Shown here piece by piece: positions 3,249 to 44,280 of a DNA stretch of 46,531 bases. A program made the position numbers and the translations under genes. The DNA comes from a virus. The stretch spans positions 1 through 46,531 of the IMG/VR virus record IMGVR_UViG_3300027659_000054. One strand, given 5' to 3'. The notes below the pieces were generated by a model. The model saw nothing but the letters and a program-made list of their open reading frames with translations. It had not been told where the DNA came from and ran no database searches. Within the stretch, counting starts at the first letter, position 1; each line of letters opens with the position of its first letter.

Positions 3249-3695
3249 ATGCCCGCGCTTGAAGTCATCACCTACTCAGCCCCCGCGGAGCTCGCCAAGC
3301 TGGCAGACCGCGCGGCGTCAGTGTGGAATGATGTCATGCAGGGTTTGGCGGTGCTCAAGAAAGCAGGCTACCCTCACATCACCATCAAATTCGGCTCGGT
3401 GGATCGTGCTTCCGACCCTACCCGCGTAGCCCAATGTGCCGACCATCCCGGCAAGCGGTGGACGATCACTCTCGCCAACGACATCAAATGGAGGCTTTCT
3501 TGGTGGGACAGGGTTTTTGGCCGTGGTGAGGACACGTTCGCATGCCTCGTCCATGAATTTGGCCACATCTTCGACCTTCCGCATTCCTCCGACCCGCGCG
3601 ACGTCATGCACCCGTCCATCGGCGGCAACGGCAAGCTGTCCGCCGAGGAGTCTGCCAACTATCGCGAGTTCTTCCTTAAGCACATCTCCCCATGA
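3249..3695 (+). CDS. Metzincin-like zinc metalloprotease
   Basis: This 148-residue protein carries an extended zinc site. HEFGH spans residues 102-106, the third histidine is H112 and the catalytic residue is E103. A methionine turn (DVMHP, M120) follows shortly after. HExxHxxxxxH plus a Met-turn defines metzincins such as matrixins and archaemetzincins. The usual glycine at position 8 of the motif is Asp109 here, which is atypical. No signal peptide is visible. Surrounded by virion-type genes, it may process a structural protein, be carried in the particle, or cut host surface or matrix protein. The stop overlaps the next start by four bases (ATGA). Confidence 0.75.
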   Translation: MPALEVITYSAPAELAKLADRAASVWNDVMQGLAVLKKAGYPHITIKFGSVDRASDPTRVAQCADHPGKRWTITLANDIKWRLSWWDRVFGRGEDTFACLVHEFGHIFDLPHSSDPRDVMHPSIGGNGKLSAEESANYREFFLKHISP

Positions 3696-4693: not shown

Positions 4694-4939
4694 ATGACTC
4701 GTGATCACTCAGACTATGGTTTTGTTGTTGTTGCTGACACTAATGCGGTCGCGACGGGGAGGTATTATGGCTATCAAGCGTGGACTGCCACGGTGATTGC
4801 CGCTATTACTTATGAGCCGGGGTATGAGGGTGATGCAGACCTTGTGGGCAAGACCCTGCCCGCTGGCCTTTATCGCCCGATGAGGTTCACCACTCTCACG
4901 CTTACCTCCGGCACTGGAGCCTGCGAACGTGCTTCCTAA
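4694..4939 (+). CDS. Small virion-type protein
   Basis: This 81-residue protein has a beta-rich pattern: aromatic residues (GRYYGYQAW), then TVIAAITYEPGY, then LPAGLYRPMRFTTLTLTSGTGA. The segment before the C-terminus (LPAG.Y.P..FT.L.LTSG) resembles small phage proteins encoded near capsid or fibre genes, although this is recognition by eye only. The start codon lies immediately after the T-rich tail of the terminator. It precedes the PAS-domain gene, and its own role is unproven. Confidence 0.5.
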   Translation: MTRDHSDYGFVVVADTNAVATGRYYGYQAWTATVIAAITYEPGYEGDADLVGKTLPAGLYRPMRFTTLTLTSGTGACERAS

Positions 4940-4960: not shown

Positions 4961-5509
4961 ATGTCGTTACAAGATTTTCCAAGTTCACTCTGGCGTGCCA
5001 GCTTCTTCGACGAGTCTCCCATTCCATGTGCACTTGTGGCTAATGGCGGTGGCTTTCTGCATGTTAATAGCAGCTATTGCGAACTCACTGGTTATGCGGA
5101 GGACGAGCTCCTTGCCCTTAAATGGCAGGACATCACCCATCCAAAGGACATTGCCGGAGACCTTGCTGGAACCAAGCGGGTTTACGAGCATACCCGTGAC
5201 GAGTACACAATGCTCAAACGTTACATCCGCAAGGATGACGAGACCATTTGGATCAATCTCCACGTTCGAGCCTACTCCATCCGTGGGCAGTTCCAGTGCT
5301 TTACCGTCCACGCCGTCCCTGTTGTTGGGGCCGGAGCATCCAGGGCTCGAGACGATGGAAAGCTTGAGGTTATCGCCAAAACCGATTGGGTCCGACTGGT
5401 CGTTGATAATCCCTGGCAGTCCCTCAGCGCCTTCCTCGCCTTCGCCTTTATCCTCGGACGGGAAAACTTCATCCAGCTTATTGAACGATTAACCCAGATT
5501 GGAAAGTAA
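4961..5509 (+). CDS. PAS-domain protein with C-terminal hydrophobic segment
   Basis: This 182-residue protein contains one PAS domain at about residues 17-122. The typical features are the SPIPCALV start, the NSSYCELTGYAEDELL helix, W-QDITHPKD, and the late strands KRYIRKDDETIWINL and FTVHAVPV. A hydrophobic segment near residues 153-167 may insert in or touch the membrane. There is no kinase, cyclase or HTH part. PAS domains sense ligands, redox state, light or oxygen, or mediate protein contacts. No cofactor ligand is obvious. The stop is three bases before the holin start, so it is probably co-expressed with holin and endolysin and could time lysis; that role is inference. Confidence 0.8.
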   Translation: MSLQDFPSSLWRASFFDESPIPCALVANGGGFLHVNSSYCELTGYAEDELLALKWQDITHPKDIAGDLAGTKRVYEHTRDEYTMLKRYIRKDDETIWINLHVRAYSIRGQFQCFTVHAVPVVGAGASRARDDGKLEVIAKTDWVRLVVDNPWQSLSAFLAFAFILGRENFIQLIERLTQIGK

Positions 5510-5512
5510 TCT

Positions 5513-5746
5513 ATGAATTCTATAACTGAAACCGCTACTGTTGAGGTGGCCACGAAGCCGTTCAAGCTTGTTGTGCTTGAAGGTAGCCTTTATTTCACAA
5601 TTTCCGCACTGTCACCTGTTGTGTTGGTGTTGGAGGGTGACAAGGTGCTGGATACTCGGCATGTTGTCGCCCTTGTTCTCGCAGGTCTTGTCGCTGGCTG
5701 CACCAGTCTTAAAGCATTCTTTTCCCAAAGTAATTCCTCCAAATGA
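5513..5746 (+). CDS. Putative holin
   Basis: This 77-residue protein has two hydrophobic segments (about 20-43 and 48-66) joined by a short charged turn (EGDKVLDTRH). The tail is short and polar and ends in SNSSK. Two membrane segments, small size and a 4-bp ATGA overlap with the endolysin gene match class II holins, which permeabilise the inner membrane and release endolysin. The first segment is weakly hydrophobic and contains Ser, Pro and Glu. The assignment rests mostly on topology and neighbours. Confidence 0.7.
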   Translation: MNSITETATVEVATKPFKLVVLEGSLYFTISALSPVVLVLEGDKVLDTRHVVALVLAGLVAGCTSLKAFFSQSNSSK

Positions 5747-6234
5747 AAATGTCCCAAGCAATGGTTGTCCTCGCCAATAAAGAGGTCGGAGTTGAAGAGA
5801 TTGACGGGACCAACTGTGGTCCCCGTGTGAACCAATACAAAGCAGCTACCAATCTTCCTGCTGATGAGGAGTGGCCTTGGTGCGCGGCTTTTGTGTGCTT
5901 TATTACACGGGAGGCTATGAATGCGTGTGGCATCAAAGAAACTGCTGGGTTCAAACGTCCGACCACTGCTGGTGCTTGGGCCTTCGAGCAGTGGTCACTC
6001 AGGCAGGACAACACCACCCAGACCAGGCGCCTTCACCACGGGGACATCGAGGCGGGTGACATTGTGGTTTTCACGTTCTCCCATATTGGTATTGCCACAG
6101 GACCGCCTGTTGACGGTCGGGTTCCTACGATCGAGGGCAACACCGATGGCCAAGGCTCGAGAGAAGGCGGCGCGGTTCTCCGCAAGTCCCGCCGTGTTGA
6201 ACAAATCAAATGCAGAATCCGCTTCACCGTCTAG
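5743..6234 (+). CDS. CHAP-type endolysin
   Basis: This 163-residue protein matches cysteine, histidine-dependent amidohydrolase/peptidase (CHAP/NlpC-like) domains. The catalytic Cys47 is in WPWCAAFV, His114 is in FSHIGIAT, and a polar third residue lies in the IEGNTDG segment (E131/N133). Such enzymes cut peptide or amide bonds in peptidoglycan at the end of infection. No separate cell-wall-binding domain or signal peptide is visible, so it should depend on the upstream holin for export. It is the only lysis enzyme recognised in the window. Confidence 0.8.
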   Translation: MKMSQAMVVLANKEVGVEEIDGTNCGPRVNQYKAATNLPADEEWPWCAAFVCFITREAMNACGIKETAGFKRPTTAGAWAFEQWSLRQDNTTQTRRLHHGDIEAGDIVVFTFSHIGIATGPPVDGRVPTIEGNTDGQGSREGGAVLRKSRRVEQIKCRIRFTV

Positions 6235-6235
6235 C

Positions 6236-6949
6236 ATGACTCTCTTTCAAACCCTCGGAACTCCCGACCCGACGCAGCGGATCTTCCGCATCACGGTGCA
6301 GGACATCCACATCAAGCCTTCAAACTTTCCTACGCTCGGCGTAACTTACGCGAACTGGGCGTTTGATGCTAAGGAACGCCTTGATGATGGCTGGAATGCC
6401 TACGTCTACATCGGCCCTGATGAGGCACCTGTGGGGCGCTCTGCCTTTCTCTTCGGCCCTGCCACAGCAGGCACTGCGCGAACCCGTACAAATATCATCG
6501 AGAGCTACCCTTGGCCAGACGTGCTAACAGCTATTGTTGCCCAGCCTAAATACCACGTCTCTGGCTATGTGGCTGACTACTTCTGGGTGCCCACGCTGAA
6601 GACTTACAACGGCCCAACCAAGACAGTCATAACGGAGATTTGGTCCGCACAGCCTCATACTATTACCGTTCCGGCGACAGTGATGAAGCCACTGCCTATT
6701 GACATTCTTTACTATCAAAACGAATACCATCTTCACCCTACACTCCATCCATCCTACGGCCCGGTGGACCTCGTTACCGCGGGCTCAATAGACCATCCAA
6801 CCTGGGGAGATACTGGAAACCTCGGTTATACCATCCCTGCTACGACAGTAATCGACTGGCCCTCTACCGTCACCATCTCTGATCGCCAGGAACCAGAAGC
6901 CGGTGGCTGGCTAAGGAGAAGTGTAATCGCCTACGCCCCTGGAACATGA
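6236..6949 (+). CDS. Hypothetical virion protein
   Basis: This is a 237-residue protein. The frame is open earlier, but the ATG at 6236, one base after the endolysin stop, is the sensible start ([15 protein letters not shown]). It is rich in aromatic residues, Pro, Thr and Ile, suggesting a beta-rich fold, and has several WP/YP turns. No catalytic motif is visible. Its stop overlaps the collagen-like gene by four bases. It could be the base or adaptor to which the collagen-like fibre attaches, but that rests on position alone. Confidence 0.55.
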
Positions 6950-7824
6950 ACGCTTACTCTAGTCTTCAAAGGATCCCCGATTGGGATTATCTGCGGAACA
7001 TTGATCGGCCTGCGATTGCGTTTGCCGAGTTTCAAGGCGGCGCCGAGAGTGCAGAAACACCGTCGCCGCGAGTTGTTATATCATCTGGTGTGGGGTCTTT
7101 TATTGGCCCCGCAGGACCCGCGGGTCCCACAGGTCCTACAGGCCCCACCGGTCCACTTGGTCCTACAGGTCCTACTGGTCCTACAGGTCCCACCGGAGTT
7201 GACACTGCAACAATTATTGCCACTGCAACTGCAGCCGAGCCAGACGTGTCCGTCGCTTTGGTGGGAACTGATCTTCAGTTTAACTTTACGCTTTATGCCT
7301 TGGCTGGCGCTGATGTTGTCAGTAGCACCACAGGCCCTGCTAGCTCCGCCAGTGTAGAGTTAAATATAGCCACTAACATGCTTGAGTTTGAGTTCACCTT
7401 TGGCCCTGGCCCCACTGGCCCTGCTTTGGGCGCAGCCATTCACTCGGTAGGCACCGGAGAGTCAGCTGAAGCCTATGTCGAGGTGATTGACGATGTGCTT
7501 CAATTCGACTTCACCCTCCCTGTTGCTATCACTGATGCCTATGTGATCGCCACAGCCACTGGCCCTGCGGAGGCTTCGTGCTCGTTGGCTGGGACTTCGG
7601 TAGGATTTTACTTTACACTGCAGGAGGGACCCACGGGGCCTGATGGACCTGAAGGACCCGCTGGACCCACAGGCCCCGCAGGTGATCCTGGTCCCACTGG
7701 TTCCACTGGTTCCACAGGCCCCACCGGCATCGGAACTGGCACAGCCTCTATTACCTATGTCGATTCCATCAACTTTGGAACATCCAGTTACACCACCCAG
7801 ACCATCACCGTCGTCATCCCATGA
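6946..7824 (+). CDS. Collagen-like virion fibre protein
   Basis: This 292-residue protein has two Gly-X-Y tracts. The first is about ten triplets near residues 54-84, mostly GPT. The second is about eleven triplets near 225-258 with GPD, GPE, GDP and GST units. Between them are three beta-rich modules of similar pattern, with segments like LQFNFTL, LEFEFTF and LQFDFTL. Collagen-like repeats form rigid trimers and are common in phage fibres. Thr in the Y position is a plausible glycosylation site. The gene overlaps a glycosyltransferase gene by four bases, suggesting that the fibre is glycosylated. Confidence 0.8.
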
Positions 7825-8717
7825 AGTTATCTGTTGCAATTATTTGTAAGAATGAGGAAAAGCTCATCGCCCGCGCCCTCCTTTCCGTGAAGACTGCGGA
7901 TGAGATTGTGATCCTCGATACTGGGAGCACAGATGAGACTGAATGCGTGGTTGCTAGTTTGGGCCTGCCCAATGTGCGGTTTCTGAAAGAGCTTTATACC
8001 TGGAAGGATGACTTTTCCGACGCCCGCAACGCTTCCTTATCTCACTGCACTGGTGACTGGGTTCTTTGTCTTGACGCTGATGACTTCATGTCGGAAACTT
8101 CGGTGAGTGAAATCCGTTCCACGCTAGAAGCGGCCCCTTGGTCGCGGCGTACTTACAGCTGTCTAATCTCTGACGAAGGCAACACACAATACACCTATGT
8201 CTACCCAAAGATCATCCGCCTCAATGCGGGCGTGAAATTCACGGGGGCCTGCCACGAAGGGACTAACATCAACGACATGGGCGCGCCAGTGGGCCGTATG
8301 TTTCTCGGGCACTCCGAAAACCACAACACCGATCCAAATCGAGTTCTTCGCATACTTTCAAAAGAGCTAGCCTCTAACCCATTAGCCCCTCGGCTGAACT
8401 ACTACGCGGGCAGAGAACATTTACACAGCAAGAATTATCTAGCTGCCGTTCATCATTTTGAACTTTGCATCAAGCATTCCAGCCACCTAGCGGAGCGAGC
8501 TGACGCTTATCTCTATCTCTCCAAGCTTTACAGCCATCTGAAACGCTCCGATGACGCTCGCACTGCCTGTTCTCAGGCCCTCGTTATCAACGCTAACTTC
8601 AAAGAGGCTCTTATTTTTATGTCCAAACTCTCCTTTGAACATAACGCAAGGCAATGGCGTGCAATGGCTGAGCTGGCCACTAATGAAGGAGTCCTCTTTG
8701 CTCGCAGTCTTGCTTAA
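7821..8717 (+). CDS. Family 2 glycosyltransferase with C-terminal TPR region
   Basis: This 298-residue protein has an N-terminal GT2 (GT-A fold) domain. It starts [10 protein letters not shown], continues with [14 protein letters not shown] (about 28-41) and has the metal-binding DAD at 85-87 in [11 protein letters not shown]. The C-terminal part (about 205-290) is helical, with two or three TPR-like units, as in the SunS-like and TPR-fused glycosyltransferases that modify proteins or peptides. There is no membrane segment. It is translationally coupled to the collagen-like gene, so that fibre is the likely substrate. The sugar donor cannot be told from sequence. Confidence 0.85.
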
Positions 8718-18013: not shown

Positions 18014-21000
18014 ATGCCCACCTTCCAGCAAATCTACAACAGTTTCAACGAGGCTAAAACCCAAGGCATCGTCACGCCTGAGGAGTCCCTTGCGACTTAT
18101 GCCCGCAGGGCGATGAACCTTACTGGTGATCCGAGCTATCAGAGCGTGGCGGAAGGTGGGTGGCTGGGGAATTCGTTGCGCTCAAGAAGTGCTGATCTTT
18201 CCAACCTTGTTGAAAGCGGCCCTGTGGATGAATGGACAAGTTCCGCCACCGGCTGGTTGGGTGATCAGTTCGGGATCAATCCAGACACCTCCCGCTCGGT
18301 GGGCAAGAGCCTTCCCCGCATGGCGGTTGATATGCTGCCAATGACAGTTGGCGCTGCCGTGACTGGCGGTGCAGCTCCAATCGCGGGGGCCATTGGCCTC
18401 GGAGCTACGAGCCTTCTCAGCGGGGCTAACGCTTATGAACAGTCTGGCCGCCCATTGGATGCAGCCATTGGCTTAGCTGCTCCGTCAGTTGGTGGTGCAC
18501 TGTCACGGGCTGGATCAACAGCGGCGCTGAACCTTGCAGCTCGGTCGAAGGTTCTGCAAAACATGGGCTTTACTGGAGGGACTAAATGGACTGGACAAGC
18601 TCTCAATGCAGCGGATGATGCGATTCTCAAAGGCCAAGGCTTCACTGACGGCCTCATCGGCCAGACCACCAAATCCTTCACCCGCCTTGACCGCCCAATG
18701 GATAAAGTCCTCGGTTATCTCGGTGGTGAGGCTGCTGCAAACGTGGGTTTCACTGGGCTTGACGTGATCCAACAAGGCACCGATGCGGTGTTCAATAGGG
18801 ACTATCTGTTCGCCAATCTCGTGTCCAACATTCCGTTCGGCGTGGCTGACCTTGCTGGCTCGATGGGAAATCGTCAGATTGGCCAAGCTACTTATCAATC
18901 CCCTGAAGCTCCTTCGGTCTATCTTTCCCAAGGCGAACAGCGCGCCGTTGAAGCCGCAGCTGCCTTTAAACTCTTCCGTGATGACCCTATCAAGCAGCAA
19001 GAACTCCGCCGGAAATACGGCCTTGACATTGCGGACATCACCATGAGGTCGTCGGACATTCGGGACGCCCTTAACGCGAAGAAATTCGGACTGCCAGAGG
19101 AAGAATCCAAGTTCGCTGCTGAGTGGAATGCCTTCCGTGACAGCGTGCCTGAAGCCCAGGCCATGTTCCCGGCTATCCAGCGCGGTGGAGCCTTTGGTTC
19201 TGAATGGGTGGGAATGAAAGAAGTCCTCGGTAATAAGGAATTACCGATAGACGCTCAGAAGATCGTGGATAAGTTTGAAGCTGGGAAGGCGGTGTTGGAT
19301 GCGAAGTATAATGCAGCGGTGGGCAAGATGGCCACGCCAATCAATCTTGACGAGAGCCTGCCACGGGTGCTGATGGATTTGAACCTGGGAGAATTCCTTG
19401 ACACTCCCATCGACCAGCGGGACTATGCCGCTGCGCTGAAGAGTTCGTTCCTGTCACTGGACGGGGTTGATCTTGTGCGGGATATTCACCGCCAACAAGC
19501 GGGATTGGAGCCTTTGAACAAGCAGTTGTTCCAAGAGTATCTAGACCTGTATGCGGGCAAGCCGATGAACTTCACGCCGGATAAGCGGGTGGAGTTGGCG
19601 GTGGCTGCGAGCTTGGCGAGGGGTGCGGTGCCGGATATGGCTAAAGTCCGCAAGGCTGCTAAGCAGGCTCGACGTGAGGGACAGAAGAATCCTGTCGAAG
19701 CTGGGATCAAAGAGATGGAGGCAGACAATGCTCCAATGATGGAACCTGTTGTGCAGAAAGGCCTTTCAGAGCAACTAGGTAAACTCCAGGCCGAATTTGA
19801 TTCGCTCTCTAGCAAGCTCACTCAAGCACAGACAGAAGGTCGTCAGCAGGATTTGACTGGCCTGCAAGAGCAACAGACTGTTATTTTGGATCAAATGGAT
19901 CAAGCACATGCTAGGCAGGCTGCTTTTGATGAGCTTAGAAAAGTTAAACCGGAGGTGAAAGCTGAGGTTCCTGTGGAAGCTGCGATTCCTCAAGTTGAAC
20001 CCACAACTATAGAACGCTTGGTTGCTTCCATGCCTCCCGCTTGGACGCCGGAAGTCCGCGCTGTGGTTGAACAGTTTTACAGAACTGGCGATGACACTTT
20101 GCTGCGCCCGCTTGGTAACACAACAGCAGCTAAGGCTGCAAGGCGTAATCTAATCGAGGCATCTCCTGAGTATGATGCTCGGACGAAAGCGGAGTCTGAG
20201 GCTGCGATTAAGAAAGAAGCTAGGGATAAAGCTATCCGTGAAAAGCCTTCGGTTAAGATCGACACGGGGGAGGACCCGTTGCTCACCAAGATTCTCTCCG
20301 ATAACAAGATCGAGCAGGAAGTCATCCCGCTTGATGGGGACTTCTTCCGCGCAGAGGACTGGGCTAAGGCTGTGGACCAGAATGGCACGGAGCACTTGGT
20401 GCCGCTGCCAGATGGGGAACTCCAGCGGGTGGAGGCGTTTGCGAGGAATATCATGTCGAAGGTTGTGCAGGAAGGCTCGCCCGCTTGGGGCATGGACTTG
20501 GTGGATTTGGCGAAGCTGCTGAATAACCCGGAGGTGCTGTATAGCGGGGTGGGGAAGATGGTGAGTGCGAAGGGTGACACCCAGTTCGCCCGTGCATCTG
20601 CCGGTTCGTTTGACTTTGGGATGGCGGAGGTTCGCAACGGTGCTATCCAGCGCCCAAACGGTAAACCACTGGCTGGTGATAAGCAGGGGATGATGACAGA
20701 GCTGGCGTTCAGAGTGAACGGTGGGGATCTTGGCGCGCCCTTGCAGAAAGATGAAGTAGCGTTTTATAAGCAACTAGTGCCGGAGGCTTTTGGGAAAGAC
20801 TCAAGAGGGGAAGATGCCGTGCATTTGCAGAAGCTGTGGGACGGGCTGGGGAAAGTGGGTGAGCAGGTGAAGGTGGTGACGTATGGGCAGGATGGCAATT
20901 CCAGTGAGGCAAAACGTAAGCTGGATAAGTTAACACACGACTGGTTTGACACGCTTCCTCAGAAGGCGCAGGCTGATGTGCAAGGCTTTATCAATAATGT

Positions 21001-24000
21001 CGAGTTTCCCGACATTCAGAACAAAATCAGTCAGAGGCTCTTTGTTGACTTTGGCGTGAGACCAGAGACCGTTTCTGAGTATGCCACTTTAAGCTCTCAA
21101 GTCGCCAAAGAACCCCGCGACACCGGCCCACGCGCAACCGCCTACTACAACACCATCTCCCCATTCGACACGAAGAAGTATCCTGTGGTGCGGGTGGATG
21201 TGGTGTTACCAAATAAACTTGGTGAAAACCAAGAGTTTGTAAAGCAAGAACAAGAAGCTATTCAAGAGTTGCAGCGCAGAAATTATTCTCCTGTTCGAGA
21301 TCAAGAAGGCAGAATTGTTAAGCTCAAAGACAATACGGCTGGACAAGAAGTCGAGCTTAACAATCTTTCTGTTGCTCTTAATAGTGTTGTTGAATCTGCA
21401 AATGAGGCCAGTATACTGAAAAGTCGCAATAAAGACAAAGAAATTACATTGTGGCACCCCGACAACCTCCACGAAAACCTCCCAAACACTCTCGGCTGGG
21501 CTATGGTTCAAATCGTCCCGCATCCAGTGACGGGGGAGAAGGTGATGTTTGTGGGGGAACAGCAGTCAAGGTGGGGGCAAGCCAAGAACAAGCAGCTAAA
21601 AGTCGATCAAGCTGAGAGAGTTCGATTGGAAGACGAGTTTGGTGTAATCCCTGGAGACGAGTATCGTGAAATCCCAGGACACCCATTGCTGCCTGTCCAG
21701 CACTCTCTCATACTCAAATCTCTCATCAAGGAAGCACAGAAGCAGGGTGTGACGAAGATTGTGCTGTCGGATTCAAAGAGTGCGATGATTACAGAGAAGC
21801 TGGACGGCAAGGAGAACTTGAAACTCGGCCCGTTTTCCGAGCAGAATCAAGCCTTAGACAAAGCTCTTGAAATGGATCGTAAGTTTTTTGGTAACGATCC
21901 TAGCAAGCGTGGCTTTGCTGTGGGAAATGTTGACGGCGTTTATGAGATTTATCTGCAAAGTGACGCTCTTCAAGTTTCTACAGAGCAGTTAAAAGAAAAC
22001 GGCTTTAGGCTTGACCGTGAAGCTGGCTTCGATGTCCACTACGACACCACCCTCCCTTCCGTAATGCGGAAGCTCACAGGGAGTGAAGGGGAGAAGGTGG
22101 ATATGGGGGTGCATAAGAACATTGACACCTCTAAGAATCAATACTTTAACACGAAAGAGGACGCTGAACAAGCCGCTGCTGCGTTTACTGGTAAGGTTCA
22201 GTTTAAAGGGAAGAACTCACAGGGCCAAGAAATCTGGGAAGTTAAACGTTCCGGCTCCCCCACCTTCCGCACGTCCGATCCTCAAAACTTAAAGTTCAGC
22301 ACTGAACAAGAAGCTGCGGTGCGCGCCTCAGCTCTCAGTGCCGAATGGAAAGCTGCAAAGGTTGGAGAGGCCTGGGTGGCTCAGAAAGCTAAAGATAATA
22401 TCACTGGTTTATCTTTCGACATCTCCAATCCATCTCCCCGTGTCAACACCCTTTTCGCTCGGAACCAAGGCACCATCTACGGCACGGCTTCCTACAAGCT
22501 CAAGCAAATCCTAATCAACTCCAAAGCGTTCCAGGGCCTTCGAGCCTCCGACCGCCTTGGTTTTATCTTCGCCCATGAGCAGTCCCACATCTCCTTCGCT
22601 AAAGCTCTCGACGGTTCCTACGGTCCGGAAGCTCTCGCCCACGCTAACCGCGCACAGGAATGGGTAAGTGCGGCTGATCCACAGGCGAAGAAGGCGGTGG
22701 AGGATGTTATTCGCGAGCTTCATTTGGATAAAGAGCTAGCTAAAATGGACGGTGTGCGGGATGTGCTAGGCAACCCAGACCCTAACGAGTGGCTGGCGAA
22801 TAACATGGCGATGTTTGCATTTGGCACGATGAAAGCTCGGCAGCCCAAAGTTGCATTCGCTATGCTGCCAAAGCCCATCCGGGAGTTCTTTGAGTGGAGC
22901 GTGCAAGGGATGCAGAATATGCTCAAAGGTGCCCAAATGTGGATGAAGCTGGGAGGGAAGGACTATAAGGCTGCGAAGAATATGCAGAAGCTTATGGATT
23001 CCATCCGGCGGTCGTTCCGGCAGGCGGAGTGGGATGCAGCACAGGCCCAGGAGTTCTTGTCGATTCAGCCGAGTGATCGGATGGCAGGGATTGCTGACAC
23101 ACAGTTTGCAAAGAGTGATGACGCTGGAGCGCAGCCATTTTTAGATGATCCTAAGTCATGGCTGTGGCATAGAGGCAGTCAAGTGGTTCAATCCTTACAT
23201 GGCCTAGCTCGGATGCATGAAGGCCTTGTGGAGCCTGCAATGGCAGTGTTTCAGAAAGAGACTGACGTGGCCAACGCGGTTGCAGAGAATTATAAGATCA
23301 TTGCTGGAGAGGTTAATTCCTCAGATAAGGTGGTGATGACTAATCCTTCTTTTAAGAGGGTTCTTGGTTCCGAGCCGTTGAGCAAGCTACATGATGCTAT
23401 TCAGATTCACGCCCGTGTGAAGAACCAGCGGATGATCCGTGTGGAAGATCCATTGGCTAATCCTCAGAAGGTGATTATGGATGTGGAAGCGTTGAGCTCA
23501 GAGCTCCGTGGGCGGTTGGCTCAGTTTAACCCAGAGGCCCAGCACGCGCTGGCTACGTTTTTAGCTCAGACAGAACGGGCAAATGCGTTCACGCAAAAGA
23601 AATTCTCTGAGTCAGCGCATGTTAGGGCGACGCATATTTTAGCTTCGATCATTAACATGCGAGCATCATTTGACCGGGCGCAATTTAAACTTGCACCGCT
23701 GATTGCTGAGGGGGTTATTAAAGATCTGGAGCTTAACGATCTTGCTTCAGCAATGCAGAAGTTGTCGGGCTTGAGCGAGGCTGATAGGGTTAATACTTTT
23801 GAGCACGCCCGAGTTCTTCAGGGTCATCTTGCTAAGCTGGATGATTACTATGCGAAGCATCCGAACTTTATCTCGGTGCGCCGTTATGGTAAACTAAAGC
23901 AGAGGATCACTAAAGACGGGGAATCTCCAGATGTTATTGATGGAGACACTCAGCTGGAACTTGACGCTGCTTTGGCTCCAAAGCTAGAAGCCGGCTGGGT

Positions 24001-26206
24001 GAAAAAGGGTAGCCTAATCCGTGAGAAGGACAAGAAGCTCATTGATAAATATGGCATCGCTGATGAACTGCTGAAAGTCATGCAGTCTGGAGAAGCGAGT
24101 TATAAGTCAATGATTGAGAAGGACTTGGGATTCACACCGGAGCAGAAGGAAAATCTTCTTGCTAACCATTCAACCTCGGACATCTTGATTCGGGAGTTGA
24201 ATGGTAGCGAGCTCTACCGCCCAACGGGGAGCACTAAATTCTCTGGAGACTTGACAAGGTTTACCTGGTGGGACCAGTTTCAGCAATATATGCCAGCAGC
24301 TATCTCAGCAGCGTCTAACCATGCAATGAATGCGAAAGTGAACTTCTGGATGAAGAACCCAGAGCTTGACGGTTTGCAGACAGCGAAGGATCAGTTCAAT
24401 GCACTGTTTGAACAGAGCAAGACTGCTGACCCTGCATGGGCGAGGAACTTGAATAAAGTGAACGCGCTGTGGCATATTGCTTGGAACTTGCCTGGTCATA
24501 TGGCAGAATTATTTCAGCCAATGGTTTCTGGCGTGGCCGAGCTTGCTGCTAAAGGGAACAGTATTCCTGGAGCTCTGAAGGCAATGTTGAAGTCTGAGGC
24601 ACAGGTATTGAAGGTTCAACGGGTGCGAGCTAAGAATGTGCTGAGGGAGACTAAACCGATTAAGATTGGCGATGAAACTTTTGAAGGCTTCTCCGCTAGC
24701 TGGCTGGAAGCTCATGGTAAAGAAGGGGACAATGTGGAAATCGCACGGATGTTCCATAACCTTAGCCATCGTTATCAGAAGGCTCCGCTGAGCGAGATTC
24801 AAAACGAGCTTGGAGCAAAACAAGTACGGTTGCAGAGGATGATTGAAGGAAAGCCGGAGACAGAGTTGATTGATATTGTCAAACGCCCGTTCCATCTTTG
24901 GGGAAAAGGTATGGACATTTATTCACAATTCACTATGCACAATAGTGTGGTGACTTTGCTTGCAGCTTATCGAAATGCAAGAAAGCACGGAGAAGACCCA
25001 GTGAAAGCTACCCGCTCGGCGGAACTCTTTGATCTCACAGCGAATAACTCCGGTGGCCGGCTTGAACGCTCAGAGATGTTTGGTAAACTTGGCGCAGCTG
25101 GGCATGTGGTGTTCTCATTGTCAAGCTTCTTACGCGGGAGATTCAGCCAAGCGGCTATCTACTATCGCCACGGGTTTGATGCGGAGTCGTTTAAGAATAA
25201 GCTCACTCCAGCACAGATCAAAGATGCTAAGAGGGCGTTCCAATACAGCGTGTTGGCTCAGCTCGGTGCAGCGGGGCTTCTCGGCTTGCCATTCGTTGGA
25301 GCAGGGATTGCCCTCATGGAAGACATGCTGGATGAGGACATCAAGGGAAAGATGTTCAACGCGCTGGATGAGTTCACGGGGGATCCTCTGTTGACACGGA
25401 CCCTCACCCACGGCATGGCTGCAACGATGACGGAGAGCCTGGGCCTTCCAGCTGATATGCATTCCCGACTCTCCCTCAGCTCCTTCCTCGGCAGCAATGC
25501 TTACGACGGGGTGAGCGCGAAGAGTTTGCTAGGACCGTCGGTTGCGATGTTTGATTCTCTCTGGAAGCTCGGCGGGGCGTTGGCTCAAGGCCAGCCGGTG
25601 GGGCAGGCACTCACTGTTGGTGGTCCAGGTGGGGTCAAACGCCTGGCGGAAGCGCTTAGTGAAGACTTCCAACGTGACAACCCAGACGCCAGCTTGGCAG
25701 CCAGCGCGCTGGGCTTCCGTTCCAGCCAGCAGTTCAAACGGAAAGAACTCGCGGCGATCATGGACAAGCAGGCGATGTCAGCGAGAAGGGACATGGACAC
25801 CTCCGCACAGCGGATCATGGAATCCATGAGTGTCAATCCAGCGGCTGCACAAAGAGCCTTGCTTATGGAAGCTGATCGACTTGTGCCAGAGGAAATGGAC
25901 CCGCTCCAACGGGAAGCTCAGCGGGCACAGAATGTCAAGGACCTTGTGAACAAAGTCAGCACAATGGCGGCGGATAAAGTCGCGCCGAAGGACCTCCGCT
26001 CGGAAGCCACAGGGCGCACGGGTGCCAGTGCCTCTCGCACGGCTCAGTCAATGGGTGTTCAGATGCCCGATCCAATGGAGCTCGCCCGCGCGCTGGCACA
26101 ACAACAAACGCGTTCCTCGTTGGGCCAGCCGATAAGCCAGAAGCCAATGAAGAACGCGTTGTTGAGGGATTTACAGTGGGGGCAGAACCCGTGGGAGTTT
26201 CGTTAA
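18014..26206 (+). CDS. Giant polyvalent protein with zincin-like site, likely ejected virion protein
   Basis: This 2730-residue protein takes up 18% of the window. Hydrophobic Gly/Ala-rich stretches near residues 100-145 could enter a membrane. Residues 580-680 are coiled-coil-like. A segment around 1160-1240 with VGEQQSRWGQ (1180-1189) resembles the EEIQSDWGQ region of large phage polyvalent proteins. A metallopeptidase-like site follows: HEQSH at 1521-1525, with a possible third ligand at E1592 in NEWLANN. The helical C-terminal third (about 2090-2500) has the SSFLRGRFSQAAIYY region seen in PLxRFG-type proteins. Such proteins are packaged and injected to act early on the host. No lysozyme domain is visible. 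Confidence 0.75.
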   Translation: MPTFQQIYNSFNEAKTQGIVTPEESLATYARRAMNLTGDPSYQSVAEGGWLGNSLRSRSADLSNLVESGPVDEWTSSATGWLGDQFGINPDTSRSVGKSLPRMAVDMLPMTVGAAVTGGAAPIAGAIGLGATSLLSGANAYEQSGRPLDAAIGLAAPSVGGALSRAGSTAALNLAARSKVLQNMGFTGGTKWTGQALNAADDAILKGQGFTDGLIGQTTKSFTRLDRPMDKVLGYLGGEAAANVGFTGLDVIQQGTDAVFNRDYLFANLVSNIPFGVADLAGSMGNRQIGQATYQSPEAPSVYLSQGEQRAVEAAAAFKLFRDDPIKQQELRRKYGLDIADITMRSSDIRDALNAKKFGLPEEESKFAAEWNAFRDSVPEAQAMFPAIQRGGAFGSEWVGMKEVLGNKELPIDAQKIVDKFEAGKAVLDAKYNAAVGKMATPINLDESLPRVLMDLNLGEFLDTPIDQRDYAAALKSSFLSLDGVDLVRDIHRQQAGLEPLNKQLFQEYLDLYAGKPMNFTPDKRVELAVAASLARGAVPDMAKVRKAAKQARREGQKNPVEAGIKEMEADNAPMMEPVVQKGLSEQLGKLQAEFDSLSSKLTQAQTEGRQQDLTGLQEQQTVILDQMDQAHARQAAFDELRKVKPEVKAEVPVEAAIPQVEPTTIERLVASMPPAWTPEVRAVVEQFYRTGDDTLLRPLGNTTAAKAARRNLIEASPEYDARTKAESEAAIKKEARDKAIREKPSVKIDTGEDPLLTKILSDNKIEQEVIPLDGDFFRAEDWAKAVDQNGTEHLVPLPDGELQRVEAFARNIMSKVVQEGSPAWGMDLVDLAKLLNNPEVLYSGVGKMVSAKGDTQFARASAGSFDFGMAEVRNGAIQRPNGKPLAGDKQGMMTELAFRVNGGDLGAPLQKDEVAFYKQLVPEAFGKDSRGEDAVHLQKLWDGLGKVGEQVKVVTYGQDGNSSEAKRKLDKLTHDWFDTLPQKAQADVQGFINNVEFPDIQNKISQRLFVDFGVRPETVSEYATLSSQVAKEPRDTGPRATAYYNTISPFDTKKYPVVRVDVVLPNKLGENQEFVKQEQEAIQELQRRNYSPVRDQEGRIVKLKDNTAGQEVELNNLSVALNSVVESANEASILKSRNKDKEITLWHPDNLHENLPNTLGWAMVQIVPHPVTGEKVMFVGEQQSRWGQAKNKQLKVDQAERVRLEDEFGVIPGDEYREIPGHPLLPVQHSLILKSLIKEAQKQGVTKIVLSDSKSAMITEKLDGKENLKLGPFSEQNQALDKALEMDRKFFGNDPSKRGFAVGNVDGVYEIYLQSDALQVSTEQLKENGFRLDREAGFDVHYDTTLPSVMRKLTGSEGEKVDMGVHKNIDTSKNQYFNTKEDAEQAAAAFTGKVQFKGKNSQGQEIWEVKRSGSPTFRTSDPQNLKFSTEQEAAVRASALSAEWKAAKVGEAWVAQKAKDNITGLSFDISNPSPRVNTLFARNQGTIYGTASYKLKQILINSKAFQGLRASDRLGFIFAHEQSHISFAKALDGSYGPEALAHANRAQEWVSAADPQAKKAVEDVIRELHLDKELAKMDGVRDVLGNPDPNEWLANNMAMFAFGTMKARQPKVAFAMLPKPIREFFEWSVQGMQNMLKGAQMWMKLGGKDYKAAKNMQKLMDSIRRSFRQAEWDAAQAQEFLSIQPSDRMAGIADTQFAKSDDAGAQPFLDDPKSWLWHRGSQVVQSLHGLARMHEGLVEPAMAVFQKETDVANAVAENYKIIAGEVNSSDKVVMTNPSFKRVLGSEPLSKLHDAIQIHARVKNQRMIRVEDPLANPQKVIMDVEALSSELRGRLAQFNPEAQHALATFLAQTERANAFTQKKFSESAHVRATHILASIINMRASFDRAQFKLAPLIAEGVIKDLELNDLASAMQKLSGLSEADRVNTFEHARVLQGHLAKLDDYYAKHPNFISVRRYGKLKQRITKDGESPDVIDGDTQLELDAALAPKLEAGWVKKGSLIREKDKKLIDKYGIADELLKVMQSGEASYKSMIEKDLGFTPEQKENLLANHSTSDILIRELNGSELYRPTGSTKFSGDLTRFTWWDQFQQYMPAAISAASNHAMNAKVNFWMKNPELDGLQTAKDQFNALFEQSKTADPAWARNLNKVNALWHIAWNLPGHMAELFQPMVSGVAELAAKGNSIPGALKAMLKSEAQVLKVQRVRAKNVLRETKPIKIGDETFEGFSASWLEAHGKEGDNVEIARMFHNLSHRYQKAPLSEIQNELGAKQVRLQRMIEGKPETELIDIVKRPFHLWGKGMDIYSQFTMHNSVVTLLAAYRNARKHGEDPVKATRSAELFDLTANNSGGRLERSEMFGKLGAAGHVVFSLSSFLRGRFSQAAIYYRHGFDAESFKNKLTPAQIKDAKRAFQYSVLAQLGAAGLLGLPFVGAGIALMEDMLDEDIKGKMFNALDEFTGDPLLTRTLTHGMAATMTESLGLPADMHSRLSLSSFLGSNAYDGVSAKSLLGPSVAMFDSLWKLGGALAQGQPVGQALTVGGPGGVKRLAEALSEDFQRDNPDASLAASALGFRSSQQFKRKELAAIMDKQAMSARRDMDTSAQRIMESMSVNPAAAQRALLMEADRLVPEEMDPLQREAQRAQNVKDLVNKVSTMAADKVAPKDLRSEATGRTGASASRTAQSMGVQMPDPMELARALAQQQTRSSLGQPISQKPMKNALLRDLQWGQNPWEFR

Positions 26207-29709: not shown

Positions 29710-32175
29710 TTAGATTTCTCCGGTTCTATAGTCTTCTTTAGTGTGTAGCCACGATGGGCCGTAGCCGCCTTCATACGGGATTACGATGCGCTCGTTTCCG
29801 ATGGAGAGGGTGTTGTTAAAATAGGATCGCACCTTGTCAACTGCCCACTCAGTCCGGTCAATGGGAAACTGTCCGCAGAGGGCATCGTGGACGGAGTGGA
29901 GCGGTTGTATAATAAGATCTCCTGAGCTACTGCGGTTTTCAGGGTCTTGCCACAATTTCTGCATTGCCAGATTTGTTGCATAGGTAGTGTTTGCTTGGGG
30001 TTCGTGTGCATAAGCTGCTTTGAATGTTTGATCGTTTCCTGGCCGTCCGAAGAACGTGCGGATGTGACCGCTGGCACAGGAGAGGGTTTTGCCTTTGTTG
30101 AGTTGTTGCTGCACCCAGCGGTGCCATTCCAGCACACCGGGGTAGCGCTTGAAGAAGACGATTTGAATTTTCTTACAGTCACCTGGTGGAACCCAGAGAA
30201 CTTTGAACTCAGGGGACTTCTTGAAAGTCTGAATAAGGATATTGTTCGCCATGGTGTTGACTCCCATATCATACGAGCTTCCATGCAAGGTTGCTTTACA
30301 AACCGCATAGAGGGAGTTGGGAATGTCGACGGTTTTCGTCAGGCGCTTAACCTCCGCGCGGGGTAGGTCATTCACGTTTACCGACACGCCAGTGAGCTGG
30401 CCTTGCATTTGCATATACATCAGGGCTATGATCTTTGCAGGTTTGATGCCAGCCATGAGGTCGTCGAGCATAGTGGGATCACCGAGCATCGCTGCGCGGG
30501 AGGCTACTGTCCAGCCGTCTGCGCCGGAAAGATCGCATTGGAAGAAATGCTGTCCGACATCGGGGAGGTAAAGATCACGTAGTTGCTCGGTAATTGTTTG
30601 AAGGTTTGTCCCAGACCCTGTAACCGAGCCAGAGCAAGAGAGGCGGCCTGTTTCTGTGCCAACGAGGTTATAGGAGCAACGAACTCTTCCATCTTGGTCT
30701 GTCTCCAGTTCGAGTTGCTTCCGAACGCCTTCGAGCTTCTTCCATCCGAGGGCGCAGGCCAAGAATGGATGCGTATGGTTTCCTTGTTTGATGATGATTT
30801 TAAGCATTGCATCGGCGTTGGCTGTGAGGCGGGTTGTTTTACGGCCAGCTTCTTTGATGAACTGCGGCTCGAAGCCGAAGCGCTTGTAGAGCAGGTCGCA
30901 CATCTGTTTGGGCGAGTTGAGGTTGATTTCACTGTTGGCATGGTTGTTGCAAGCCATCTGGAGTTCTTTCATTTTGACTGAAAGTTCACCGAGCTTGACC
31001 TGTGCGTGGTTGGTGTCGTAACGGATTCCTCGCAGCGACATGTATTGTAGCGAGGGGATTAGGGACATGTTGAAGTCGTAGTGGTCGCGCTGGGCGGGAG
31101 ACATCGCGGCCATGTGGTTCTGGTGGATTTCTAAGGTAACGGCTGCGTCTTTGCAGCAATAGGTTCGATGGGTAACCTTAGCACTGTCGTCATCGTGGGA
31201 GAGTTTGCCCTCGAATTTGTAATAAGGCTCTTTGGACCAGATGGACGCTTGCGTGCCAAGGCCTTTCGGAAGCTCCGGATAGATCTCCCATCCTGATAAC
31301 ATGGTGTCATGAGAAATATTTCGAGCGTTGATGTGCCAGAGTTTGGCGAGGACGACGTAATCATAGAGGGAGTTTTGTAGAACTTTAGGGATTGCGGGGT
31401 TGGACATCATCTCGTTGAACTTCTGCATCACGATGCCCTTGGTGGGGTCGTCAAAGTCAGAGAGGTTGATTGTCCAAGCGGAAGACGGATCGGTGGAAAT
31501 GCCGATGCAGGTGACGCCATCTAGGTTTTTGTATTTGTCGGCAGTGGGGTTGGGATAGCCGCCTTCGATGTCAACGGAGACCAGCTGTCCTGCTGAGATA
31601 CTGGCCAAGCGGGATAGGCATTCACTGGCAGTGAGGGAGGGCTCGAGCTTTCTATTGGGGAGATTGATACCAACTTGACTGGCTTCTTCCACTGCACGTC
31701 CAATGTCAAATTGAAAGAGTGGAGTATCGTCCCAGACTTTTTGGACATACCCTGGAGAGAATGTCGAAACGCATTTATGGCGGTTATCAAATCCGTTGAA
31801 GATAGTCCCTCGATATACGTTGACTTTGTGGTAAACTCCAGCAGCCCAGAGTGCGGTGCCTCCGAGGAGTAGGACACAGTTTGGTTGGAACTTGTTGAGG
31901 TCATTTTTAAGTATGGTTAGTGAGGTTTGGAAGTCGCTGTCGGATTTGTTGATTTGTTCAATGTCCCCGCCGGGTGGGACTTGGTTATAGATGTAGCCAC
32001 GGAAGCATTGGGAGAGAGTGAGGCCGCTGTTTTCCAGGGCGGCGCTGAGGAGGCCAGAAGACGGTCCAGCGAAGGGTCGTCCCTGGGCTAGTTCATGTGG
32101 TCCAGGCGCATCGCCGATGACAGCTAAGCGGTGGGAAGATGGGGAGAGGGGGAAGGCGTTGGGAAGGTGGGTCAT
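29710..32175 (-). CDS. Family A DNA polymerase with N-terminal uracil-glycosylase-like domain
   Basis: This is an 821-residue protein. Residues 15-165 resemble family 4/5-type uracil-DNA glycosylases: GDAPGPHE at 21-28, GRPFAGPSSGLL, VLLLGGTALW, and FSPGY at 139-143, where the catalytic HPS-type His is replaced. A 3'-5' exonuclease follows: DIE at 202-204, N268-D272, and Y339xxxD343. The polymerase part has motif A (D548), motif B near 611-638 (KATLHGSSYDMG) and motif C HSVHD (760-764). Motif A has Gly-Ala-Asp instead of Gln-Ile-Glu. It should be the replicative enzyme. UDG-like fusions to PolA are known in some phages. Confidence 0.9.
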   Translation of the reverse strand: MTHLPNAFPLSPSSHRLAVIGDAPGPHELAQGRPFAGPSSGLLSAALENSGLTLSQCFRGYIYNQVPPGGDIEQINKSDSDFQTSLTILKNDLNKFQPNCVLLLGGTALWAAGVYHKVNVYRGTIFNGFDNRHKCVSTFSPGYVQKVWDDTPLFQFDIGRAVEEASQVGINLPNRKLEPSLTASECLSRLASISAGQLVSVDIEGGYPNPTADKYKNLDGVTCIGISTDPSSAWTINLSDFDDPTKGIVMQKFNEMMSNPAIPKVLQNSLYDYVVLAKLWHINARNISHDTMLSGWEIYPELPKGLGTQASIWSKEPYYKFEGKLSHDDDSAKVTHRTYCCKDAAVTLEIHQNHMAAMSPAQRDHYDFNMSLIPSLQYMSLRGIRYDTNHAQVKLGELSVKMKELQMACNNHANSEINLNSPKQMCDLLYKRFGFEPQFIKEAGRKTTRLTANADAMLKIIIKQGNHTHPFLACALGWKKLEGVRKQLELETDQDGRVRCSYNLVGTETGRLSCSGSVTGSGTNLQTITEQLRDLYLPDVGQHFFQCDLSGADGWTVASRAAMLGDPTMLDDLMAGIKPAKIIALMYMQMQGQLTGVSVNVNDLPRAEVKRLTKTVDIPNSLYAVCKATLHGSSYDMGVNTMANNILIQTFKKSPEFKVLWVPPGDCKKIQIVFFKRYPGVLEWHRWVQQQLNKGKTLSCASGHIRTFFGRPGNDQTFKAAYAHEPQANTTYATNLAMQKLWQDPENRSSSGDLIIQPLHSVHDALCGQFPIDRTEWAVDKVRSYFNNTLSIGNERIVIPYEGGYGPSWLHTKEDYRTGEI

Positions 32176-43674: not shown

Positions 43675-44280
43675 TTATAACGTAGGATCAAGCAAAGATG
43701 CTTCAAGAAAGCTAATGACCGTGTTATTTTTAAGCTTCCTGCAAGCACAAGCACAAGCACAAGCACAAGCATAAGTATAAGCATGAGCATGAGCATGAGC
43801 ACGAGCACTAGCACTAGCACTAGCACTAGCATTAGCATGAACATGAACCTGAGCATGAGCATGCTTTTCTGACTCAATTGATCTGTCAATATTAGATAGC
43901 CAATTATCTGCCCACTTCAACCAGATAGTTGAAGGATTTGCTAACTGCTTTGCACAGTTTATAGCTACATACTGCTTTTGTGCGGGACTTAACGATGGAA
44001 GCATGAGTTCTTCTACTAATGTTTGCGATTTGCATGCAAACTTTAATTCATCCTGAGCTACGATCTCACTAGTTTCAATCTTAAACAGCCTAGGTTTGTC
44101 TATGCTAGCATGTATAGGATTAAACATAACTGCCATCAACGGGTGGTTGTAAAAATGCAGAACCTGAGCTGAGCACATTCTTGTGCCTTCCTGTTCAGCT
44201 GTTTGAGCTTCTCCGAGTTTCCATTTAAGCCCCCCGTGAGATGTCATGTCTTGGGTTAAAAGCTTGTATCCGATATTCAT
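43675..44280 (-). CDS. Protein with DUF7666-like N-terminus and alternating-Ala tail
   Basis: This is a 201-residue protein. The N-terminal part (about 1-90) resembles a family I associate with segments like DMTSxxG..W..GE...C...LHF..HPL (DUF7666-like, by eye), possibly a small-molecule or peptide sensor. Residues about 141-180 form an alternating X-Ala tract in which X is His, Ser, Arg, Tyr or Cys, coded by hexanucleotide repeats, followed by RKLKNN and a hydrophobic end. The tract could change length by slippage in six-base steps, keeping frame. A hairpin lies directly before the start. Confidence 0.6.
   Translation of the reverse strand: MNIGYKLLTQDMTSHGGLKWKLGEAQTAEQEGTRMCSAQVLHFYNHPLMAVMFNPIHASIDKPRLFKIETSEIVAQDELKFACKSQTLVEELMLPSLSPAQKQYVAINCAKQLANPSTIWLKWADNWLSNIDRSIESEKHAHAQVHVHANASASASASARAHAHAHAYTYACACACACACRKLKNNTVISFLEASLLDPTL
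43744..43861 (-). repeat. Hexanucleotide tandem repeat encoding X-Ala dipeptides
   Basis: About twenty six-base units in tandem. On the plus strand they form blocks AGCACA, AGCATG and AGCACT with variants; on the minus strand they read GCT followed by a variable codon. Blocks of identical units (four to five each) suggest several rounds of local expansion. The repeat lies within the coding frame, so six-base steps preserve reading frame. Confidence 0.85.

Follow-up and report, generated by a model that had tools for sequence, protein, structure and literature searches.

Holin timing is usually viewed as a clock internal to the phage, determined by the holin allele and its expression, and the main known external input to lysis timing is lysis inhibition of the T4/N4 type. 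In phage T4, the antiholin RI uses a membrane-linked soluble domain to couple an environmental cue, believed to be superinfection, to the holin T (PMC8385771, PMC6832632). Extra membrane genes beside the holin also tune lysis timing in phage P1 (LydA/LydB, PMC9025707) and in mycobacteriophages (LysF1a/LysF1b, PMC13056207); these are small transmembrane (TM) proteins for which the text consulted reports no PAS domain. Here, we analysed a gene that may follow both patterns, encoding a soluble domain linked to a putative membrane segment and lying beside a holin-like gene. Unlike these systems, its soluble part is a PAS domain, which has not been reported for T4 RI either, and while RI is periplasmic (PMC8385771, PMC6832632), this domain is predicted to be cytoplasmic. 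The gene lies in IMG/VR virus record IMGVR_UViG_3300027659_000054, positions 1 to 46,531, the 46.5-kb stretch of DNA analysed as a whole and called the window below.

An earlier note on this DNA knew of no described phage lysis module with a PAS regulator. Our search of the literature, mainly of openly accessible papers, likewise retrieved none, and a survey of viral lytic proteins published in 2025 makes no mention of PAS (PMC12596118). Since BFVD contains 'PAS domain' proteins of uncultured phages under automatic names, phage PAS proteins as such are not new; what appears to be new is the definition of a family and its linkage to lysis. Matches to PAS-like folds also lie near lysis genes in the Cellulophaga phages phi18:3 and phi19:1 (BFVD S0A2B2 and R9ZZL0; E 1.3e-3 and 2.6e-5, weak to moderate matches). 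In phi18:3, gp090 (L234, NC_021794, 39102-39620) precedes a GH108 endolysin by two genes, and its TM segment is N-terminal, in contrast to the C-terminal helix of the window family; in phi19:1, gp108 (L236, NC_021799, 6203-6925) lies five genes before a lysozyme and its 240-aa length fits R9ZZL0. We rejected gp090 and gp108 as sequence homologues, homology not being detected, and treat them as a lead at the level of the fold only. Both phages are cultured viruses and offer a possible experimental entry point.

The PAS gene and its neighbours in the window

The left-hand part of the window contains, in order, a small terminase-like gene (3692), a 132-aa gene, an 81-aa gene, the PAS gene, a 77-aa gene, a CHAP gene and a 237-aa gene, after which come genes for a collagen-like fibre, a glycosyltransferase, the large terminase (8769), the portal (10704) and a capsid assigned by position (13553). 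The PAS gene had been placed three bases before a holin-like gene and its coupled CHAP endolysin gene, on one strand, and the arrangement is indeed as described: the PAS stop codon occupies 5507-5509, the next ATG begins at 5513, and the stop codon of the 77-aa gene overlaps the CHAP start by 4 nt (ATGA, 5743-5746). Both hydrophobic segments of the 77-aa protein are clear. It matched no family, holin or other, in Pfam or PHROG and had no relative among viral contigs except in the identical record; only its size, topology and position make it holin-like.

Table 1. Lysis region of the window, and gene orders at other loci (L numbers) carrying a related PAS gene
Locus	Feature or gene order	Position	Strand	Remarks
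Window	81-aa conserved gene	4694..4939	+	Upstream; left edge of variable lysis slot in relatives
Window	PAS-TM gene (182 aa) with one PAS domain and a C-terminal membrane-type helix	4961..5509	+	Pfam PAS_3 2.9e-9; AlphaFold; 23 phage homologues of like architecture
Window	PAS domain, residues ~13-120	4997..5320	+	Conserved core present; cellular DI..RK output motif absent
Window	C-terminal helix, residues 151-181: hydrophobic core, then GR and amphipathic tail	5411..5503	+	Putative membrane anchor
Window	77-aa protein with two hydrophobic segments	5513..5746	+	Holin-like in topology and location; begins after a 3-nt gap from PAS
Window	CHAP-type endolysin, 163 aa	5743..6234	+	PHROG endolysin 9.6e-11; Pfam CHAP 1.7e-5, slightly below cut-off
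Window	237-aa conserved gene	6236..6949	+	Downstream; right edge of slot
L138/L141	PAS - 58-aa membrane-type protein - lipoprotein - CHAP			
L144	PAS; endolysin Amidase_3			PAS 98% identical to L138 PAS, but unrelated endolysin
L124	PAS - TM - multi-TM - phage lysozyme			
L100	PAS - Amidase_2 - two-TM - Rz/Rz1-like			
L116	Fibre - PAS - DUF5675 - TM - Rz/Rz1-like			DUF5675 is of unknown function in Pfam
L120	PAS - M15 peptidase - TM			M15_3
L104	Fibre - PAS ... M15 - two-TM - lipoprotein			M15_3
L111	PAS - TM			Adjoins divergent CHAP
L147	PAS - serine hydrolase - lipoprotein			

Several other genes of the window deserve mention in their own right. A Matrixin-like metalloprotease gene (Peptidase_M10, 5.8e-9; 3249-3695) immediately precedes the small terminase gene, and the glycosyltransferase (7821-8717), of family 2, comes after the collagen-like fibre gene (6946-7824) and ahead of the large terminase. 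A 2730-aa protein (18014-26206), with no Pfam match at E 1e-3, is placed like a large internal virion protein. On the minus strand, a family-A DNA polymerase (29710-32175) carries a fused N-terminal uracil-DNA glycosylase domain (Pfam: UDG 1.4e-12, 3'-5' exonuclease, DNA_pol_A 2.8e-18), and an ORF at 43675-44280, which covers a low-complexity DNA repeat, encodes long runs of His-Ala and Ala-Cys dipeptides.

The assignment of a single PAS domain to the product of the PAS gene is confirmed by family matches and by the fold. The protein scores above the curated Pfam cut-offs (in brackets) with 37.5 bits for PAS_3 (25.6), 27.5 for PAS (22.6) and 25.2 for PAS_8 (21.8), and an AlphaFold2 model of the protein, for which 16 family members were aligned, has a PAS fold with a pLDDT of 96-98 over residues 21-100. 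Foldseek against the PDB returned PAS domains as best matches, including the FAD-bearing PAS of NifL and other sensor PAS domains. In the model, the C-terminal helix is separate from the PAS fold, and a second family member, the L138 protein, showed the same layout when modelled. The hydrophobic C-terminal segment of the earlier note is thus predicted as a helix, but the hydrophobic stretch in the window protein is short, with a 19-residue mean of 1.33 against a TM threshold of 1.5; the label 'transmembrane' would here lean on the relatives, in most of which the segment is clear.

A Pfam scan of the window protein gave PAS alone, with no output domain, and the linker motif DI..RK, which couples PAS to output domains, is absent. 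The GXNCRFLQ-type motif of LOV photosensors is also absent, the residues around C40 reading SSYCELTGY, and resemblance to LOV is confined to the fold. Rz-like inner-membrane spanins have an N-terminal TM segment and a periplasmic coiled coil; the window protein instead has its helix at the C-terminus and a PAS domain as its soluble part. Prediction of a cofactor from conserved residues was tried and rejected: the same residues are present in cellular PAS domains of the subfamily, and no cofactor was singled out.

A phage family of PAS proteins

Scanning IMG/VR with the motif pattern [FWLC]QDITHP, followed by two alignment-based scans, gave 24 distinct phage proteins of 153-245 aa, that of the window and 23 further ones; a last scan with the PAS subfamily added no new lineages. 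Once near-copies are merged, pairwise identity within the family is at most 51%, and it is 22-36% to the window protein. Nearly all members consist of a lone PAS domain, a linker and a C-terminal hydrophobic segment, the exceptions being L113, where an overlapping coiled-coil and TM gene comes next, and L117. The family has no dedicated PHROG, its members matching just the PAS segment of a 1030-column family, and no close isolate relative was present in the 50,697-record phage collection searched. With the window PAS as a single query, viral contigs and isolate phages yielded no close homologue beyond the identical record; a consensus PAS query matched 13 records of isolate phages, mostly sensor proteins or host-type genes.

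The nearest cellular proteins are bacterial multi-domain PAS_3-type signalling proteins of the ..Y.MEKRYIRKDG..VW.. subfamily, with which the phage proteins share the PAS fold and the N, THP.D, D and Y.M.KRY motifs (common core N36, T59, H60, D67, Y82, K86, R87 and Y88). The cellular proteins are large and multi-domain (among the best 80, the median is 796 aa and one is under 260 aa) and have DI..RK after the last strand, whereas the phage proteins lack this motif and have a membrane-type helix at their C-terminus. When 25 phage and 30 cellular domains were placed in one tree, two changes sufficed to explain the phage and cellular labels, and none of 500 shuffles was as low. The window protein groups in this tree with L147, L095 and L111, and more loosely with L138 (SH-aLRT 80-89), on a short alignment with weak overall support. 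The phage proteins form a phage-specific family, in near-complete separation from cellular PAS proteins. Two phage contigs also encode PAS-EAL proteins of the same PAS subfamily (L148:7977-9119 and L151:3075-4178; EAL 1e-43 and 2e-44), which are probable c-di-GMP phosphodiesterases.

Both the membership in a subfamily of cellular signalling proteins and the loss of the output motif fit the main rival to a role in lysis, namely that this is a late accessory gene ('moron') acting on host signalling, for instance as a membrane-tethered decoy that pairs with host PAS proteins. We regard this explanation as rather unlikely, though it deserves serious consideration; a soluble decoy would hardly be expected to conserve a membrane helix at its C-terminus, and the genomic contexts described below bear on it from both sides.

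Distribution among relatives and genomic contexts

A search with the large terminase (TerL) gave 80 loci, one of them the identical record, and the closest isolate terminases, from LUZ24-like Pseudomonas phages, have 24% identity. Several relatives at 58-75% terminase identity share the order small terminase, 132 aa, 81 aa, variable slot, CHAP, 237 aa, with other membrane proteins and a lipoprotein instead of PAS in the slot; in L005, for example, CHAP is immediately preceded by a multi-hydrophobic protein of 210 aa and a lipoprotein of 68 aa. Among 50 TerL-related contigs, many of them fragments, PAS_3 was found in the identical record alone and was absent from the other 49, so the PAS gene is not conserved across this phage lineage.

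The endolysin gives a similar picture. In a CHAP tree, the window CHAP groups with the CHAP proteins of the PAS-bearing L138 and L111 (99/99), two loci that entered the tree because they had been found through PAS. When loci were scanned by CHAP alone (best 80 loci, with the L138 contig outside them), PAS was absent within 3.5 kb in 78 of the 79 other CHAP relatives among the matches listed. We reject strict co-inheritance of the two genes; with PAS near one of 79, the PAS gene is an optional accessory rather than a fixed partner of this endolysin. CHAP identity to the window is 68% in L138/L141 and 61% in L111, and no TerL or major capsid homologue was detected in these contigs (L111 being a 7.5-kb fragment), which fits an exchange of lysis genes between unrelated phages. 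The same gene order, looked for in related phages, was recovered in part: several unrelated phages have PAS beside holin-, endolysin- or spanin-type genes, but close structural relatives are without PAS.

Across the family, about nine of the 24 members, the window and about eight other lineages, adjoin lysis genes. The enzymes at these loci are unrelated, comprising CHAP, Amidase_2, Amidase_3, GH24 lysozyme and M15 peptidase, and were confirmed by Pfam, the serine hydrolase match of L147 being weaker; the adjoining holin candidates are not one family. From the PAS stop to the next start, the spacing at lysis-adjacent loci is -4 to +10 nt. With the window excluded, five of 13 independent lineages lie within four genes of a lysis enzyme against 1.5 expected (P=0.010), and on contigs under 70 kb the count is five of ten against 1.36 (P=0.006). 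This test treats lineages as independent, with 0.75 kb per gene, and its P values depend on approximate gene counts and on our own reading of the contexts. The linkage to lysis is above chance, real but moderate. At least half of the family sits among tail/baseplate, tail/fibre, terminase, other late or unrelated genes, mainly on large T4-like contigs.

For an accessory gene acting on host signalling, adjacency to lysis genes would arise only because the fibre/lysis junction tolerates insertions. Its sporadic presence among relatives is in keeping with this, as are the copies that come after tail-fibre or tail-tip genes (L097, L099, L102, L104 and L116), and the T4-like copies among structural genes fit either such a gene or a broader late function; what the explanation accounts for poorly is that tight coupling with non-homologous lysis enzymes recurs in several lineages, above expectation. 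That the protein serves in the virion, in assembly or in another late step unrelated to lysis seems very improbable. It would suit the T4-like copy of L107, between tube and portal genes, and the copies of L097 and L139, which precede baseplate-wedge-like genes (identities read from sequence), but small phages repeatedly put the PAS gene in lysis modules with spanin-like genes.

The contexts also bear on whether the PAS protein could itself be the holin or a holin subunit, with the PAS domain oligomerising and the C-terminal helix making the membrane lesion. A single membrane helix with a self-associating domain could suffice for this, and in L147 no other holin-like TM gene was seen between the PAS gene and the hydrolase and lipoprotein genes. 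Yet a separate small TM protein is found nearby in nearly all other lysis contexts, and three of the proteins (window, L138 and L147) have a marginal helix; we consider a holin function improbable.

A possible modulator of the holin

The earlier proposal of a link to lysis is partly supported, by the PAS fold, the tight same-strand coupling and the recurrence in several unrelated phages, but weakened by the relatives without PAS and by the large share of the family located elsewhere. The reading we prefer, at somewhat short of an even chance, is that the PAS protein is an optional, membrane-tethered accessory of the lysis module that modulates the holin. Judged from sequence features, a membrane-tethered modulator of the holin best accounts for its anatomy: PAS comes first and the helix last, there is no output domain, and the gene lies in a probably late operon, coupled to genes for a holin-like protein and an endolysin.

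The lysis/structural operon would express such a protein late in infection. Its PAS domain would most likely be cytoplasmic, because the C-terminal anchor comes without a signal sequence, and the helix would lie within or against the inner membrane. In this position the protein may act as an antiholin-like or holin-partner accessory, contacting the holin. Binding between PAS domains, or between PAS and a partner, possibly responsive to a ligand or to a redox or energy cue, could then alter holin assembly and, with it, the timing of lysis. The more specific idea, that a family of phages carries a membrane-tethered PAS sensor dedicated to gating the holin in response to the redox, energy or ligand state of the host, is in our judgement unlikely. 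If true, it would represent a direct metabolic input to lysis timing that is so far undescribed, and a recurring membrane-tied PAS module in lysis cassettes would be a concrete candidate for a link between cell physiology and the time of lysis.
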